55,027 bases of DNA from a virus. The position numbers and the translations under genes were made by a program. Shown here one piece after another: positions 22,458 to 54,452 of this stretch (position 1 is its first letter; every line of letters starts with the position of its first letter). The stretch is from the IMG/VR virus record IMGVR_UViG_3300001472_004174, positions 1-55,027 of that record; one strand, written 5' to 3'. The notes beneath the pieces were generated by a model. That model worked only from the letters and a program-made list of their open reading frames with translations. It was not told where the DNA came from and made no database searches.

Positions 22458-22486
22458 TTGACACTATAACGAATCTGTGTTATTAT
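22458..22486 (+). promoter_or_regulatory. Early promoter with CGAATC element
   Basis: TTGACA (22458-22463), CTATAA, CGAATC (22470-22475), then TGTGT and TATTAT (22481-22486); spacer 17, with an extended -10 TG. Same layout as the promoters at 34355 and 35160. Confidence 0.8.
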
Positions 22487-22985: not shown

Positions 22986-23061
<76 letters not shown>

Positions 23062-23078: not shown

Positions 23079-23294
23079 ATGAAGCCAGGCGAAGCAATTA
23101 TGATAGCCGCAAGGAAACAAGCGGAGGGAGAAATAGCAATCCACCTAGCAAATATTCAGGTCTATCAAACAATGCCTGCAGGTATCGGAGAACACTCAGA
23201 TGTTACCGAAGCAGTTATTGAAGAACTTAATAAGCTGGCGGCCGCACACGACCGTCTTGAAATGCTCAAAGAGTATTTCGAAAAAGCTGAATAA
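23079..23294 (+). CDS. Small conserved-type phage protein
   Basis: A 71-residue soluble helical protein beginning MKPGEAIMIAARKQAEGE, with PAGIGEHSDVTEAVIEEL in the middle and an AHDRLEMLKEYFE end. I recall similar small proteins in T4-like marine phages, all of unknown function; this is memory, not a search. Start chosen at 23079 (preceded by aaaggtaat), since the longer frame would run through the tRNA. It lies between two tRNA genes. Confidence 0.7.
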   Translation: MKPGEAIMIAARKQAEGEIAIHLANIQVYQTMPAGIGEHSDVTEAVIEELNKLAAAHDRLEMLKEYFEKAE

Positions 23295-23303
23295 TAAAAT
23301 TTA

Positions 23304-23388
23304 GCCCATGTGGTGAAATTGGTAGACACGCAGGTTTTAGGTACCTGTGCTTCACGGCGTGGGGGTTCAAGTCCCTCCATGGGCACCA
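23304..23388 (+). tRNA. tRNA-Leu (anticodon TAG)
   Basis: Acceptor GCCCATG pairs with CATGGGC; the anticodon stem CAGGT/ACCTG encloses TTTAGGT with anticodon TAG (reads CUA). It has the long variable arm of a class II tRNA (near tgcttcacggcgt), a T-arm GGGGTTCAAGTCCC, discriminator A and encoded CCA. Confidence 0.96.
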
Positions 23389-23419: not shown

Positions 23420-23851
23420 ATGAAATTAACGTATATCGTTACACTCGCTAGTAGCCTCTTAATTGGATCGTTTGCTTATGCAGAAGACATGACTATTGAA
23501 ATGTTAAACAAACGTGACGATGGAGCAAAGATGGTTTATAGCGAAGACATTGCACGTATTGACGTGGGCGATACAATTACTTGGGTACCAACATCTAAAG
23601 GACATAATGTACATTTTATTGCAGGTCCAGATGGTTGGGATAAACCAAAGAAGTCAAAGAACAACAAAGAGGTTGCTCTAACATTCGACACGCCAGGCAT
23701 TTATTTGTATCAATGCACACCACATGCAAGTATGGGTATGATTGCACTTATAGTTGTAGGTGATGATACCTCTAACCTAGATGCATTAAAGAAAGCAAAA
23801 GTACGTGGTAAATCGAAAAAGAAACTTAAAGGTCTAATGCAGGATCTTTAA
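23420..23851 (+). CDS. Pseudoazurin-type blue copper protein
   Basis: A 143-residue secreted protein. A signal peptide (MKLTYIVTLASSLLIGSFAYA) is followed by a cupredoxin fold with all four type 1 copper ligands in the right spacing: His62 in KGHNVHF, then Cys99, His102 and Met107 in YQCTPHASMGMI (C+3, C+8, as in pseudoazurin). The C-terminal Lys-rich tail (about 124-143) is also like pseudoazurin or amicyanin. The family is a periplasmic electron carrier, for example to nitrite reductase or from methylamine dehydrogenase. Stop and next start overlap by one base. A blue copper protein of this type in a phage is unusual. Confidence 0.9.
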   Translation: MKLTYIVTLASSLLIGSFAYAEDMTIEMLNKRDDGAKMVYSEDIARIDVGDTITWVPTSKGHNVHFIAGPDGWDKPKKSKNNKEVALTFDTPGIYLYQCTPHASMGMIALIVVGDDTSNLDALKKAKVRGKSKKKLKGLMQDL

Positions 23852-24270
23852 TGAACTATTTTAAAAACATAAGCGAAAAACTACCGGACTTCTGTTTATC
23901 ACATTGGTTGTACAGAATTCCTTTGGCCATTGTTTTTATTCAACAAGGACTAAGTAAGTTTCCAGTATCCGTAGAAGATGCTGAAAGTTTTGGTCTGCCA
24001 TATTTGGTTTGGTGGGTTGTCTCTTATGGTGAACTAGGCGCAGGTTTAGGACTCATTGTAGGAGGCATATTCCACACACAAAAAATGCCACATTGGATAG
24101 GTGACATTTTTACACGTTTCTCTGGAATTACAATCTGTTGTATAATGACAGGTGTTATCTGGGTAGGCGAACCAGAAAGTCTATTAGACGTAATCTTATA
24201 TGACAATCTACACGTATTTTTATGGGTAGGTGGTTTGTTTTTTGCATTACGAGGTAATAGGGCTAAATAA
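23851..24270 (+). CDS. DoxX-like membrane protein
   Basis: A 139-residue four-helix membrane protein. LYRIPLAIVFIQQGLSKF in the first helix matches the DoxX/DoxD entry motif, followed by a VSYGELGAGLGLIVGG helix, ITICCIMTGVIWVGE and a last helix VFLWVGGLFFALRG. DoxX proteins are small inner-membrane proteins linked to thiol oxidation, quinone or terminal oxidase chemistry. It overlaps the pseudoazurin gene by one base, so the pair may form a redox module between the membrane and the periplasm. The functional link is inference. Confidence 0.7.
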   Translation: MNYFKNISEKLPDFCLSHWLYRIPLAIVFIQQGLSKFPVSVEDAESFGLPYLVWWVVSYGELGAGLGLIVGGIFHTQKMPHWIGDIFTRFSGITICCIMTGVIWVGEPESLLDVILYDNLHVFLWVGGLFFALRGNRAK

Positions 24271-24276
24271 GGATGT

Positions 24277-24567
24277 ATGGCAAGAGTTGGAAGAAAACGG
24301 GTCCTGCAATGGATCAAAGAAGATTACGCTACTAACCCTGTAAGATTTACTACAGAGGTTTGTGGGATGACCTTAAACTTAATGGCCGCAATAATACTAA
24401 TGTGGTATAGCCCAAATCCTCCAATGTTTTGGGCTTACATTTTTTTCATACTAGCTAGTGGATTATTAATGGTGGCGGCTTTCAGCCGTAAATCATTTGG
24501 ATTTACTTTTATGTATATCGTTTATTTGATGATAGATGGTATAGGTTTTTTGAAAACTTTACTTTAA
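24277..24567 (+). CDS. Small membrane protein of unknown function
   Basis: A 96-residue protein with a basic N-terminus (MARVGRKRVLQW), then hydrophobic segments at about 27-45, 50-66 and 74-92. Positive-inside reasoning puts the N-terminus in the cytoplasm. It follows the DoxX-like gene by 6 bases and its stop abuts the convergent minus-strand operon. I recall similar small proteins in marine phages but cannot assign a role; an accessory to the redox pair is possible. Confidence 0.6.
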   Translation: MARVGRKRVLQWIKEDYATNPVRFTTEVCGMTLNLMAAIILMWYSPNPPMFWAYIFFILASGLLMVAAFSRKSFGFTFMYIVYLMIDGIGFLKTLL

Positions 24568-26162: not shown

Positions 26163-26750
26163 TTAATAGTAACCGAAAGCCCAATACTTCTCTTTACACC
26201 ACCAACATTCTTTACATGGTCTAGGCAAACTTTCGCTTTCACAACTGATAGTTAAATTTGCTAAATCTTGTAAATTATGCTCGTTATATAATTCTGCTAT
26301 CGTTTGTTTAGTACTATTTATAAACGGACGATAGTGATATACCCCATGTGATGAGATTACTCTAATTTCTCGCTTTTTATCTCGACTTTCATCACGTCCT
26401 TCTATCAATAATTCAGAGGGATTTAGTGTCATACCAGTTAATACACCTGATGCTTTATGTTTATCAATAAGTCTATCTCTAGTTTTGGTTCTATTGTTTC
26501 GTGCTTCATTTCTATCTTTATAGTAACCAATATAATGTTCTTCAATTCTGTTTGGAAATCTAGCATGTAACCAATTTGTAATTGCTATTACATTAAATAG
26601 ATTATAGTAATTTAAAGATTGATGGCATACGCTACTTAAGACCAGCTTTGTATTTGGTAACTCTTTTAGCACTAGATAAGAGAGCAACGCACTATCAAGT
26701 CCGCCACTCAGCATCATTACATATGTTCCAGAGTTAGGTACATCTTTCAT
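26163..26750 (-). CDS. PP-loop ATPase, QueC-like
   Basis: A 195-residue protein with an N-terminal PP-loop (VMMLSGGLDSALLSYLVL) and a C-terminal zinc-type cluster: Cys in TISCESE, then PCKECWWCKEKYWAFG, the C-x(n)-CxxCxxC arrangement of QueC/ExsB, which makes 7-cyano-7-deazaguanine from carboxydeazaguanine using ATP and ammonia. A central KTRDRLIDKHKASGVLTGMT segment fits the family. The DpdA-like gene at 51598 gives it a possible purpose. Alternatively it is an amide-forming PP-loop enzyme of the local pathway. Overlaps the gene upstream by one base. Confidence 0.65.
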   Translation of the reverse strand: MKDVPNSGTYVMMLSGGLDSALLSYLVLKELPNTKLVLSSVCHQSLNYYNLFNVIAITNWLHARFPNRIEEHYIGYYKDRNEARNNRTKTRDRLIDKHKASGVLTGMTLNPSELLIEGRDESRDKKREIRVISSHGVYHYRPFINSTKQTIAELYNEHNLQDLANLTISCESESLPRPCKECWWCKEKYWAFGYY

Positions 26751-46114: not shown

Positions 46115-48904
46115 ATGAGTTATGTGGACGCTTATTACAACCGAGATAAAGACATTGTTCAAGTAATAGAACGTGTCGATGGAAAACGTGTCTATAATGA
46201 TTTCCCTGCATGGCGTACATTTTATGTCAAAGATCCTAGAGGACAACATTCTAGTATTCATGGCGACAAAGTACGTGAAATTAAGTGTAAGCGACTAAAA
46301 GATTTACACAAAGAACGAAGAATAAACTCAGGTAAATCTCTATACGAAAGTGATATCAAACCAGAAGTAAGATGTCTAAGTGAGAACTACAACGGCGTAG
46401 ATTCTCCTAAACTACATGTTGCATTCTTTGATATCGAGGTAGACTTTGATGCAGATAAGGGATTTGCTCCTCCAGAGGATCCCTTTATGCCTATCACTGC
46501 AATTACTGTATATCTACAGTGGTTAGATAAACTAGTCACGTTTGCTCTTCCTCCTAAACATATGCAAGAGGGAGAAGGGCTAGAGGAAGCAGAACGTATC
46601 TGTAAACAATTTGATGATACATTTTTATATCTTGATGAAGTAGATATGTTAAATGACTTTATTGCAGTGATTGATGATGCTGATGTTTTATCTGGTTGGA
46701 ACTCAGAAGGTTTTGATATTCCATATACAGTTAGACGTATTACTCGTATGATGAGTAAATCACATACACGTAAACTTTGTTTGTGGGACTTATTGCCTCA
46801 TGAAAGAAAAGTAGTTAAGTATGGTAGGGATCAAATTACATATGACTTATCAGGTCGTATTCACTTAGACTATCTTGAACTTTATCGTAAGTATACGTAT
46901 CACGAAATGCATTCATATTCACTTAATGCTATTGGTGAGTACGAACTTGGTGATAAGAAAATTGAGTATGAAGGTACACTAGACCAACTATACAACAGAG
47001 ACTTCTATAAGTTTATTGAATACAATAGACAAGACGTTGCACTACTTGGTGAAATGGATAAGAAGCTACAGTTTATTGACTTAGCAAATGAAATTGCACA
47101 TGATAACACAGTTAATATCAAAACAACTATGGGTGCTGTTGCAGTTACAGAACAAGCAATTATTAACGAAGCACATCGTAGAAATATGGTTGTGCCTGAT
47201 AGAAAAGCCAAAGATTGGGGAGAAGATGATATCGAACCAACTGATGCAGAATTAGAAGAAGCAGAAAAACAAAAAGCCGCAGGTGCATTTGTGGCAAATC
47301 CAAAGACTGGAATCCAACGTTGGGTATCAGGTATTGATATCAACTCACTTTATCCTTCAATTATTCGTGCATTGAATATGTCTCCAGAAACTATTGTTGC
47401 ACAACTTGAACCAACACTAACAGAGAAGATGATTGGTGATAGAATTGCACATGGTAGACGAAATGGTAGTAAGGGTTTCGGTGCGGCACAGGCGTGGGAA
47501 GATACATTTAGTGCAGAAGAATTTAGACTAGTCAATGAGAAAGATAAGACAGAAAAGATTAATCTTAGATTAGAGTCAGGCGAAGTAGCAGACATGACTG
47601 GTGCAGAGATACATAACTTGGTATTCAATAGCGACCTACAATGGGCTATTACTGCCAATGGTACTGTTCTTAAGCAAGATGTACAAGGTATTATTCCTAG
47701 TCTATTAGAACGTTGGTATGCTGAACGTAAAATATTACAAGCGAACAAGAAGAAAGCTATCGAAGAAGGCGATAAAGAAAAGATTGCATTCTGGGATAAG
47801 AGACAACTTGTTAAAAAGATTAACTTGAATAGTTTATATGGTGCGATTCTAAATCCTGGTTGTCGCTTCTATGATAAACGTATAGGTCAGAGTACAACAT
47901 TGTCCGGTCGTTGTATCACAAGACATATGGGTGCTAAGACTAATGAAGTAATCGCTGGTGATTATGACTACAAAGGTGAGTCCATCATCTATGGTGATAC
48001 AGATAGTATCTATTATTCTATGTATCCTGTTTATAAGGAAGACATTGACGCAGGCAAAATTGAGTGGAGTAAAGAAAAAGTTATTGAACTATATGATGAG
48101 ATTGCAAATCAAGTCAATTTAAGTTTTCCAGACTTTATGAAAGACTTCTTTAATTCTCCACGTAAACAAGGTGAGATTATTGCCGCAGGTCGTGAGAACT
48201 GTGCAAGTATGGGTATCTTCATTAAGAAGAAACGCTATGCAATGCTTATCTTTGATGATGAAGGTGTAAGGAAAGACGTAGATGGCAAACCTGGTAAAGT
48301 AAAAGCTATGGGTCTTGACTTGAAACGTAGTGACACTCCAGACTATATGCAGAACTTTTTGAGTGATGTTCTTGTTAAAATTCTAACAGACTGTACAGAA
48401 CAAGACGTTATCGATATGGTTAAAATATTCAAGAAAGAGTTTAGAGCGAAGCCTGGTTGGGAAAAAGGAACTCCTAAACGTGTTAACAATCTTACTATGT
48501 ACAGAAAGAAAGTACAGAAGATTGCAAAAGCACATGGTAGAGAATTTAAACTAACAGGTGCCGAAGACAAAAGAGATAAAGTACATCTTCCGGGTCATGT
48601 TAGTGCGGCTTTAAATTGGAATACTCTACGTGAATTACATGGAGACAAATATTCTATTGAGATTACAGATGGTATGAAAACTATTGTATGTAAACTAAAA
48701 CCTAATGCGTTAAAAATGACAAGTATAGGTTATCCAATCGATGAAAAACGAATTCCAGAATGGTTTCAAGAACTTCCGTTTGACGATGAGTTAATGGAAG
48801 CAACAATCATTGATAAGAAACTAGATAATCTTATTGGTGTTCTTAAGTGGGACTTAAGTGATGCTGATGCATCTGAACAATTTACAAATTTATTTGATTT
48901 TTAA
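46115..48904 (+). CDS. 43: T4-type family B DNA polymerase
   Basis: A 929-residue replicative polymerase (T4 gp43: 898). The exonuclease domain begins with AFFDIEVDFD (Asp106/Glu108); Exo II and III lie within WNSEGFDIPY and the RQDVALLGEMD segment. Polymerase motifs: A, DINSLYPSIIRALN near 408; B, KKINLNSLYGAILN near 568; C, YGDTDSIYYSM near 626. All catalytic aspartates are present, so it should both polymerise and proofread. It starts right at the dsbA stop and is followed without gap by the YgfZ-like gene, so replication and Fe-S genes are co-transcribed. Confidence 0.97.
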   Translation: MSYVDAYYNRDKDIVQVIERVDGKRVYNDFPAWRTFYVKDPRGQHSSIHGDKVREIKCKRLKDLHKERRINSGKSLYESDIKPEVRCLSENYNGVDSPKLHVAFFDIEVDFDADKGFAPPEDPFMPITAITVYLQWLDKLVTFALPPKHMQEGEGLEEAERICKQFDDTFLYLDEVDMLNDFIAVIDDADVLSGWNSEGFDIPYTVRRITRMMSKSHTRKLCLWDLLPHERKVVKYGRDQITYDLSGRIHLDYLELYRKYTYHEMHSYSLNAIGEYELGDKKIEYEGTLDQLYNRDFYKFIEYNRQDVALLGEMDKKLQFIDLANEIAHDNTVNIKTTMGAVAVTEQAIINEAHRRNMVVPDRKAKDWGEDDIEPTDAELEEAEKQKAAGAFVANPKTGIQRWVSGIDINSLYPSIIRALNMSPETIVAQLEPTLTEKMIGDRIAHGRRNGSKGFGAAQAWEDTFSAEEFRLVNEKDKTEKINLRLESGEVADMTGAEIHNLVFNSDLQWAITANGTVLKQDVQGIIPSLLERWYAERKILQANKKKAIEEGDKEKIAFWDKRQLVKKINLNSLYGAILNPGCRFYDKRIGQSTTLSGRCITRHMGAKTNEVIAGDYDYKGESIIYGDTDSIYYSMYPVYKEDIDAGKIEWSKEKVIELYDEIANQVNLSFPDFMKDFFNSPRKQGEIIAAGRENCASMGIFIKKKRYAMLIFDDEGVRKDVDGKPGKVKAMGLDLKRSDTPDYMQNFLSDVLVKILTDCTEQDVIDMVKIFKKEFRAKPGWEKGTPKRVNNLTMYRKKVQKIAKAHGREFKLTGAEDKRDKVHLPGHVSAALNWNTLRELHGDKYSIEITDGMKTIVCKLKPNALKMTSIGYPIDEKRIPEWFQELPFDDELMEATIIDKKLDNLIGVLKWDLSDADASEQFTNLFDF

Positions 48905-53159: not shown

Positions 53160-54452
53160 ATGTTAGAAAAACTTTTTGGATTATCTAAGAAGAAAACGAC
53201 GGTTAAAACGGAAGTTATGGCCGGACTTGCGACATTCCTTACTATGGCATATATCACAGTAGTAAACCCTGCGATATTGTCAACTGAAGGTACTGGAATG
53301 GAGTTTGGTGCTGTTTTTACTGCCACAATTATTGCGGCAGTGATTGGTACACTAATCATGGGACTGTGGGCTAATTGGCCCGTAGCACTTGCACCTGGAA
53401 TGGGACTAAATGCCTTCTTTGCATTTGGTGTTATTTTTGGTATGGGATATACTTATCAACAAGCACTGGCGGCTGTATTTATTGCAGGTATAGTGTTTCT
53501 TGGATTAAGTTTGACACCAGCAAGAAAGTACATTATCAATAGTATACCGAAAGGTATGAAACTAGGTATAGGAGCAGGTATAGGTCTGTTCTTAGCTATT
53601 ATCGGTTTGAAGAATGCAGGTGTTGTGGTTGATAATCCAGCTACATTGGTAGGACTAGGAGATATTTCTAGTTGGCCAGTATTACTTGCAGGTCTAGGTT
53701 TTGCTTTAATGGCAGTCTTAGATAAACGAGGTATTCCAGGTTCAATTATTATTGGTATTTTATCAGTAAGTGTAATTGCTTGGATAACAGGTATTAGTGA
53801 TTTAAATGGTGTTGTGGGGTCGATTCCGAGTCCAGTACATGCATTTACATTGGACTTTAGTTTGATTGCGACTGCCGGATTTATTGGTGTTGCTTTTGCG
53901 TTCTTATTTGTAGACTTTTTTGATACGGCAGGTACACTTACAAGTGTTGCCAACCTTACAGGGAAAGTGAATAAGAAGGGAGAAGTAGAAGGCATTGATA
54001 GAGCCTTAATGGCGGACTCAACTGCAACTACAGTCGGTGCGTTAATGGGTACTTCTAATACTACATCATACATTGAGTCTGGTGCAGGTATTAAAGAAGG
54101 AGGCAAATCAGGATTAACTGCGGTTACCGTAGCAATCTTATTTGCAGTGTGTTTGGTCTTAGCACCATTGGCACAAAGCATTCCAGCATTTGCAACGGCT
54201 CCAGCATTAGTCTTTATTGCTACGTATTTCTTACGTAATCTTAAAGATATTGATTGGGACGATGTAAGTGAATATGCACCAGCGGTATTGGCGGCAATTA
54301 TTATGCCACTAACATTTAATATCGCTTATGGTATTGCTTTAGGTTTTATTGCTCATGTAGTAATTAAAGCGGCAAGTGGTAGACATTCAGAACTTAATGC
54401 AGGTTCTTTAGCTATTGCGGCAGTATCAGTACTATATTTTGTAGTACAATAG
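53160..54452 (+). CDS. AzgA-type purine permease (NCS2 family)
   Basis: A 430-residue membrane protein with about 12-13 hydrophobic segments, the size and order of AzgA-type NCS2 transporters. VKTEVMAGLATFLTMAYIT is the family N-terminal motif, VALAPGMGLNAFFAFG the first helix-hairpin, LFVDFFDTAGTLTSVANL the conserved substrate-site helix with Asp, and NTTSYIESGAGIKEGGKSG the second. Members import adenine, guanine or hypoxanthine with protons. Strong ribosome-binding site (aaggagga), 20 bases after the DpdA stop. Purine uptake would serve phage nucleotide synthesis. Full-length and intact. Confidence 0.9.
   Translation: MLEKLFGLSKKKTTVKTEVMAGLATFLTMAYITVVNPAILSTEGTGMEFGAVFTATIIAAVIGTLIMGLWANWPVALAPGMGLNAFFAFGVIFGMGYTYQQALAAVFIAGIVFLGLSLTPARKYIINSIPKGMKLGIGAGIGLFLAIIGLKNAGVVVDNPATLVGLGDISSWPVLLAGLGFALMAVLDKRGIPGSIIIGILSVSVIAWITGISDLNGVVGSIPSPVHAFTLDFSLIATAGFIGVAFAFLFVDFFDTAGTLTSVANLTGKVNKKGEVEGIDRALMADSTATTVGALMGTSNTTSYIESGAGIKEGGKSGLTAVTVAILFAVCLVLAPLAQSIPAFATAPALVFIATYFLRNLKDIDWDDVSEYAPAVLAAIIMPLTFNIAYGIALGFIAHVVIKAASGRHSELNAGSLAIAAVSVLYFVVQ

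Follow-up and report, generated by a model that had tools for sequence, protein, structure and literature searches.

Why would a marine phage carry a pseudoazurin gene, and what might it gain from keeping a DoxX gene beside it? The pair lies in a stretch of viral DNA of 55,027 nt (the window), part of a 103,021-base virus record that is itself a fragment. An earlier reading, made from the letters alone (the sequence-only reading), had proposed an unusual electron-transfer set, perhaps tied to host respiration. Cyanophages are well known to control photosynthetic electron flow, and virus-encoded carriers are known as well (cyanophage plastocyanin). For aerobic respiration in heterotrophic marine bacteria, the case for viral control has so far rested on uncertain reads: bulk marine metagenomes yielded a reported viral cbb3 oxidase (PMC3474794), and viral metagenomes are known to suffer from contamination (PMC3877843).

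Identity of the pseudoazurin and its DoxX partner

Three open reading frames lie on the + strand where the sequence-only reading had placed them, at 23420–23851 (143 aa), 23851–24270 (139 aa) and 24277–24567 (96 aa). The first encodes a pseudoazurin, a type I copper protein with a putative signal peptide. It scores 112.6 bits with the pseudoazurin model TIGR02375 (equivalog cut-off 109.85) and 61 bits with PF00127 (cut-off 21.2); its best sequence matches in the PDB are all pseudoazurins, headed by that of Sinorhizobium (PDB entry 3tu6), and the best Foldseek matches of its AF2 model (pLDDT 87.5) are solved pseudoazurins (E 3e-14). The four copper ligands noticed earlier, His62, Cys99, His102 and Met107, are the same in every one of 81 viral sequences. 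Inspection by eye shows an N-terminal hydrophobic stretch with an AYA cleavage motif (after ...SFAYA). The early choice of pseudoazurin over plastocyanin was borne out: the plastocyanin model TIGR02656 gives 34.2 bits against a cut-off of 87.85, with only 29 bits for PHROG 515. Amicyanin is likewise rejected (TIGR02657, 51.3 bits against a cut-off of 110.2). The protein shares with known pseudoazurins (for example Sinorhizobium meliloti 3tu6, and 1bqk) the common fold, the four copper ligands and the C-terminal helices, and by eye its N-terminus resembles their signal peptide; it differs from them in being phage-encoded, paired with DoxX and placed in a marine clade (100/100 support for the split from 20 other alphaproteobacterial pseudoazurins).

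The second gene (23851–24270, +), described at first as DoxX-like, encodes a true DoxX-family membrane protein, with 36.3 bits for PF07681 against a gathering cut-off of 23.6. Its start and the pseudoazurin stop overlap by one base (TAATG). The AF2 model (pLDDT 81) has five helices of 16–26 residues, and a simple hydropathy cut-off flagged no helix. The likeness to the DoxX family consists in a model score over the cut-off and in a small, putatively polytopic membrane protein; unlike the family at large, phage DoxX forms a strongly conserved subfamily that is rare in cells. A solved relative was found neither by sequence nor by clear fold (Foldseek best E 0.48). The best VIA-align match, to NACHO/TMEM35A (Z 10, 113 residues, 4.0 Å), is ordinary for helical bundles and was left uninterpreted. 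We also considered a DoxDA thiosulfate:quinone oxidoreductase and rejected it: the protein matches PF07681 only and no DoxD model, and no DoxA-like neighbour was recognised, either by Pfam at the window or among the recurrent neighbour families of related loci.

We consider the protein identities within the cassette to be firmly set, with little room left for error. Between phages, dN/dS is 0.03–0.22 for pseudoazurin and 0.04–0.16 for DoxX; with values this low, both are under purifying selection and therefore look like functional phage genes. The 96-aa membrane ORF (24277–24567, +) fares differently. It is a real reading frame, as the sequence-only reading had it, with a dN/dS of 0.12 and copies 95–97% identical in four other contigs (L007 and L048–L050), and it gives nothing over cut-off in Pfam, PHROG or NCBIfam. 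It occurs only in close jumbo-phage relatives and is therefore outside the conserved cassette.

The phage and the surroundings of the cassette

Judged by its sequence, the window belongs to a T4-superfamily phage, of whose genome it is a fragment. Its DNA polymerase (46115–48904, +) is of the T4 type and closest to those of alphaproteobacterial jumbo phages (tblastn: 48% with Sinorhizobium phage Phosso, 45% with Agrobacterium phage Atu_ph07). The order pseudoazurin–DoxX–96-aa ORF is common to the window, to a relative of 342,607 bases (L049) and to L007, L048 and L050; given this shared order, the window probably comes from the genome of a jumbo phage.

Two tRNA genes found by ARAGORN precede the cassette on the + strand: tRNA-Thr(tgt) at 22986–23061 and tRNA-Leu(tag) at 23304–23388, the latter ending 31 bases before the pseudoazurin start codon. 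Between them lies a small phage ORF of PHROG 1811 (23079–23294, +; E 1.2e-21; function unknown), with family members in 17 loci, in other phages again close to pseudoazurin or DoxX. Upstream of this run, a promoter-like site on the + strand (22458–22486; TTGACA-17-TATTAT with TG before the -10) has 11 of 12 consensus matches; it is a consensus match only, of a kind no more numerous here than in shuffles.

Linkage of pseudoazurin and DoxX among marine viruses

The search of viral sequences for the same pair, which the sequence-only reading had suggested, was run on IMG/VR. Scans with the window proteins found pseudoazurin relatives in at least 297 viral contigs and DoxX relatives in at least 261, and neither gene in any of 50,697 isolate phage records. 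Many of these contigs adjoin T4-type genes (clamp loader, DNA polymerase, RegA repressor, replicative helicase, ribonucleotide reductase). The pair is thus widespread in marine T4-type phages and not peculiar to the window.

To measure linkage we took the best 80 pseudoazurin loci and the window and clustered them at 90% identity; of the 42 clusters, 33 have 2 kb of flank on either side. The loci were chosen by similarity to the window protein, and lineages near the window are over-represented. DoxX is the commonest neighbour family of the sampled loci (48 loci). It lies within 2 kb of pseudoazurin in 21 of the 33 distinct contexts, on the same strand every time (21 of 21), so the pairing is more than chance. 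In 16 of these 21 contexts DoxX comes after pseudoazurin and in five before it, and the genes abut or overlap in 13. That the order switches and the proximity is kept points to a functional link between the two. Ten of the 33 contexts have neither DoxX nor the third gene described below nearby. We also considered whether a c-type cytochrome replaces pseudoazurin in DoxX loci that are without it. This idea was dropped: no cytochrome-like CxxCH ORF was found within 2.5 kb, and the CxxCH matches near these loci are thioredoxin/glutaredoxin-like or of zinc type.

A third partner resembling oxidase subunit IV

A gene for a one-helix protein of about 68 aa is found in 15 of the 33 pseudoazurin contexts, 13 of which have DoxX too. 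Of 26 contexts centred on DoxX, 14 contain it, in many cases with no pseudoazurin. Of 33 members of this family, 26 match PF07835 (COX4_pro_2, aa3 cytochrome c oxidase subunit IV) at E 0.05, the best at 3.6e-6, and no other family is matched by more than one. The gathering cut-off of 22 is passed by at least two members, those in L045 (25.9 bits) and L015 (22.1 bits), with that of L081 below it (18.8 bits). When a profile of the family was compared with 177,635 PDB chains, the top five were all aa3 oxidase subunit IV (E 0.1–0.5); five chains of the same kind are unlikely to head such a list by chance, though each E-value is weak. Of the control genomes, only one passes the cut-off of PF07835.

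The likeness to bacterial subunit IV (CtaH, PF07835) covers an N-terminal stretch and the one helix; most of the phage proteins add to this a conserved CN-GV motif and a YNGEQYxPxNLN tail. This partner points, on sequence similarity, at aa3 cytochrome c oxidase in particular. PF07835 is known mainly from Alphaproteobacteria, which fits alphaproteobacterial hosts. The gene was not found in the window's 103-kb record, a fragment; in the 342-kb relative L049 it is present, split over the record ends. Sixteen pseudoazurin-bearing phage records were searched for an oxidase catalytic subunit and none was found; the acceptor therefore has to be a host enzyme.

Two further families of small membrane proteins, both without a Pfam or PHROG match, recur in the same phage cluster next to DoxX and the subunit-IV-like gene. 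One is about 120 aa long (27 loci; for example L045 4073–4444), the other about 60 aa (30 loci; for example L059 2675–2860).

Cellular relatives and phylogeny

The nearest cellular pseudoazurins belong to SAR116, SAR11-type and other marine Alphaproteobacteria. In a SAR116 sox operon (L086 1173–6149) the gene stands between soxD and soxB, in the order soxY-soxZ-soxC-soxD-pseudoazurin-soxB; a SAR11-type relative (L099) lies outside any sox operon, and another from a marine alphaproteobacterium (L240) is flanked by a ctaB-like UbiA-family gene on one side and COX4/COX3 genes on the other. The phylogeny against host proteins that had been proposed as a check groups the viral sequences with the marine alphaproteobacterial pseudoazurins: viral and marine cellular proteins are split together from 20 other alphaproteobacterial pseudoazurins with 100/100 support. 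The SAR116 clade falls among the viral branches. The tree implies seven label changes, with bootstraps that had not settled and many inner forks open.

Cells seldom have a relative of phage DoxX: of 385 alphaproteobacterial genomes sampled, 12 gave a match at E 1e-5, and several of these are distant. Cellular DoxX adjoins an NDH-2-type flavoprotein (Pyr_redox_2 and NDH2_C) in two small genomes (L219 and L220) and a CDGSH iron-sulfur gene in a third locus (L223). The flavoprotein beside DoxX in these small alphaproteobacterial genomes (L219 4123–5727) carries a C-terminal cyclic-nucleotide-binding domain. Taken with the sox and cox loci of the cellular pseudoazurins, these neighbours suggest by gene context a respiratory reading of the phage genes.

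A proposed respiratory cassette and its alternatives

What, then, do these genes do in an infected cell? The best reading, somewhat better than an even chance in our estimate, is an auxiliary respiratory cassette that feeds electrons to the host terminal oxidase. Its parts can be graded separately: a respiratory role of the cassette is probable, and the oxidase as electron acceptor is modestly favoured. The pseudoazurin would be exported into the periplasm of its host, a marine alphaproteobacterium, would bind one copper there and would shuttle single electrons to the host terminal cytochrome c oxidase (aa3 or related), supplementing or replacing host cytochrome c. DoxX, an inner-membrane protein presumably made by coupled translation, may act on the side where electrons enter or near the quinone, and the subunit-IV-like protein that many of the phages have may act on the oxidase itself. 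The electrons could come from bc1, from Sox or sulfite dehydrogenase, or from quinone by way of DoxX. The infected cell would in this way maintain its proton motive force and its ATP through phage replication, and the use of copper in the carrier would save heme and iron. The suggested tie to host respiration has gained support from the oxidase-like third partner.

The general logic would be that of cyanophage plastocyanin PetE (PHROG 515), likewise a virus-encoded soluble type I copper electron carrier that keeps host energy flow going. The partners of PetE, however, are photosystem genes, whereas those of phage pseudoazurin are DoxX and an oxidase-subunit-like protein, and its hosts, unlike those of cyanophage PetE, would be heterotrophic Alphaproteobacteria.

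Part of the same evidence can be read in terms of sulfur: the host Sox system or sulfite dehydrogenase would reduce the phage pseudoazurin and DoxX would act like a thiosulfate:quinone oxidoreductase subunit, giving supplemental sulfur oxidation. The SAR116 operons and the top PDB match to Sinorhizobium pseudoazurin 3tu6 agree with this. Yet the recurrent neighbours include no recognised sox, dsr or DoxA gene, DoxX matches PF07681 and not DoxD, the recurrent partner is oxidase-like rather than sulfur-like, and the SAR11-type relative stands apart from sox genes; we think the sulfur reading unlikely. Another possible role, in low-oxygen water, is as donor to copper nitrite reductase or N2O reductase of the host. 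This is the classic pseudoazurin role, and denitrification reductases are its best-studied acceptors (PMC12848317). This role is quite unlikely here, with a linked gene that resembles a subunit of an aa3 (oxygen) oxidase, cellular relatives in sox and cox loci and no nir, nor or nos gene recognised among the neighbours. A protective role is also conceivable, in which pseudoazurin binds periplasmic copper released in infection and DoxX answers redox stress; a copper protein with a DoxX partner would suit it, and DoxX proteins are tied to redox homeostasis in mycobacteria. But a one-copper carrier makes a poor buffer, no copper pump or chaperone was recognised among the conserved neighbours and the linkage is to an oxidase-subunit-like gene, which makes copper buffering or oxidative-stress protection a rather improbable explanation.

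Could the genes be host DNA, introduced into virus collections by contamination or misbinning? Cellular genes can occur in viral metagenomes (PMC3877843), but here they lie inside contigs with the T4-type replication genes listed above, in gene orders absent from the cellular loci examined. The cellular contigs that do carry the pair or a virus-like pseudoazurin look phage-like themselves: two GTDB contigs labelled Muricauda and Rhodobacteraceae (L082 and L088), both with pseudoazurin, appear to be phage contigs that were misbinned, L088 likely so. There is next to no chance that contamination explains the locus, and for the pseudoazurin/DoxX family as a whole it is excluded, because many contigs hold T4-type genes next door.

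Returning to the respiratory reading, it has a bolder form that is possible but doubtful: the phage subunit-IV-like protein would join the host aa3 oxidase, DoxX would link the quinone or dehydrogenase side and pseudoazurin would be the dedicated heme-free donor, together making a virus-modified terminal oxidase. The infected cell would then respire without depending on the turnover of host cytochrome c and on iron, which would parallel in respiration what cyanophages do to photosynthesis. We found no earlier report of the pseudoazurin–DoxX–subunit-IV-like set in viruses in the open-access papers searched. In hundreds of contigs, inside those with T4-type replication genes, a gene for an electron carrier recurs together with its membrane partner and a gene like that of an oxidase subunit, which suggests that large marine phages keep or redirect host respiration during infection, and since the cassette consists of small, expressible proteins, virus-directed respiration becomes directly testable.

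Other genes of the phage record

The same phage record holds, at 55714–56145 (L103 714–1145), a flavodoxin (PF00258, 107 bits), by sequence a second virus-encoded electron carrier, this one predicted to be cytoplasmic. At 53160–54452 of the window, a gene labelled as a tail protein through PHROG 27398 matches the Xan_ur_permease transporter family (PF00860, 172 bits), and on this match the tail label looks wrong. A QueC/PP-loop-like ATPase (PF06508, 27 bits) is found at 26163–26750, inside a minus-strand block of unnamed genes, and an SbmA/BacA-like transporter (PF05992, 461 bits) at record positions 63110–64084 (L103 8110–9084). A run at 68214–74679 (L103 13214–19679) comprises an AMP-binding enzyme, a Trp_halogenase-like flavoprotein, ketoacyl synthase genes and two small membrane proteins, desaturase-like by eye (one of them was run against Pfam, with no match), and looks like a phage lipid or secondary-metabolite set. 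Finally, a long minus-strand run at 81656–93861 (L104 7656–19861) encodes large proteins, several of which are radical-SAM-like by eye (CxxxCxxC).
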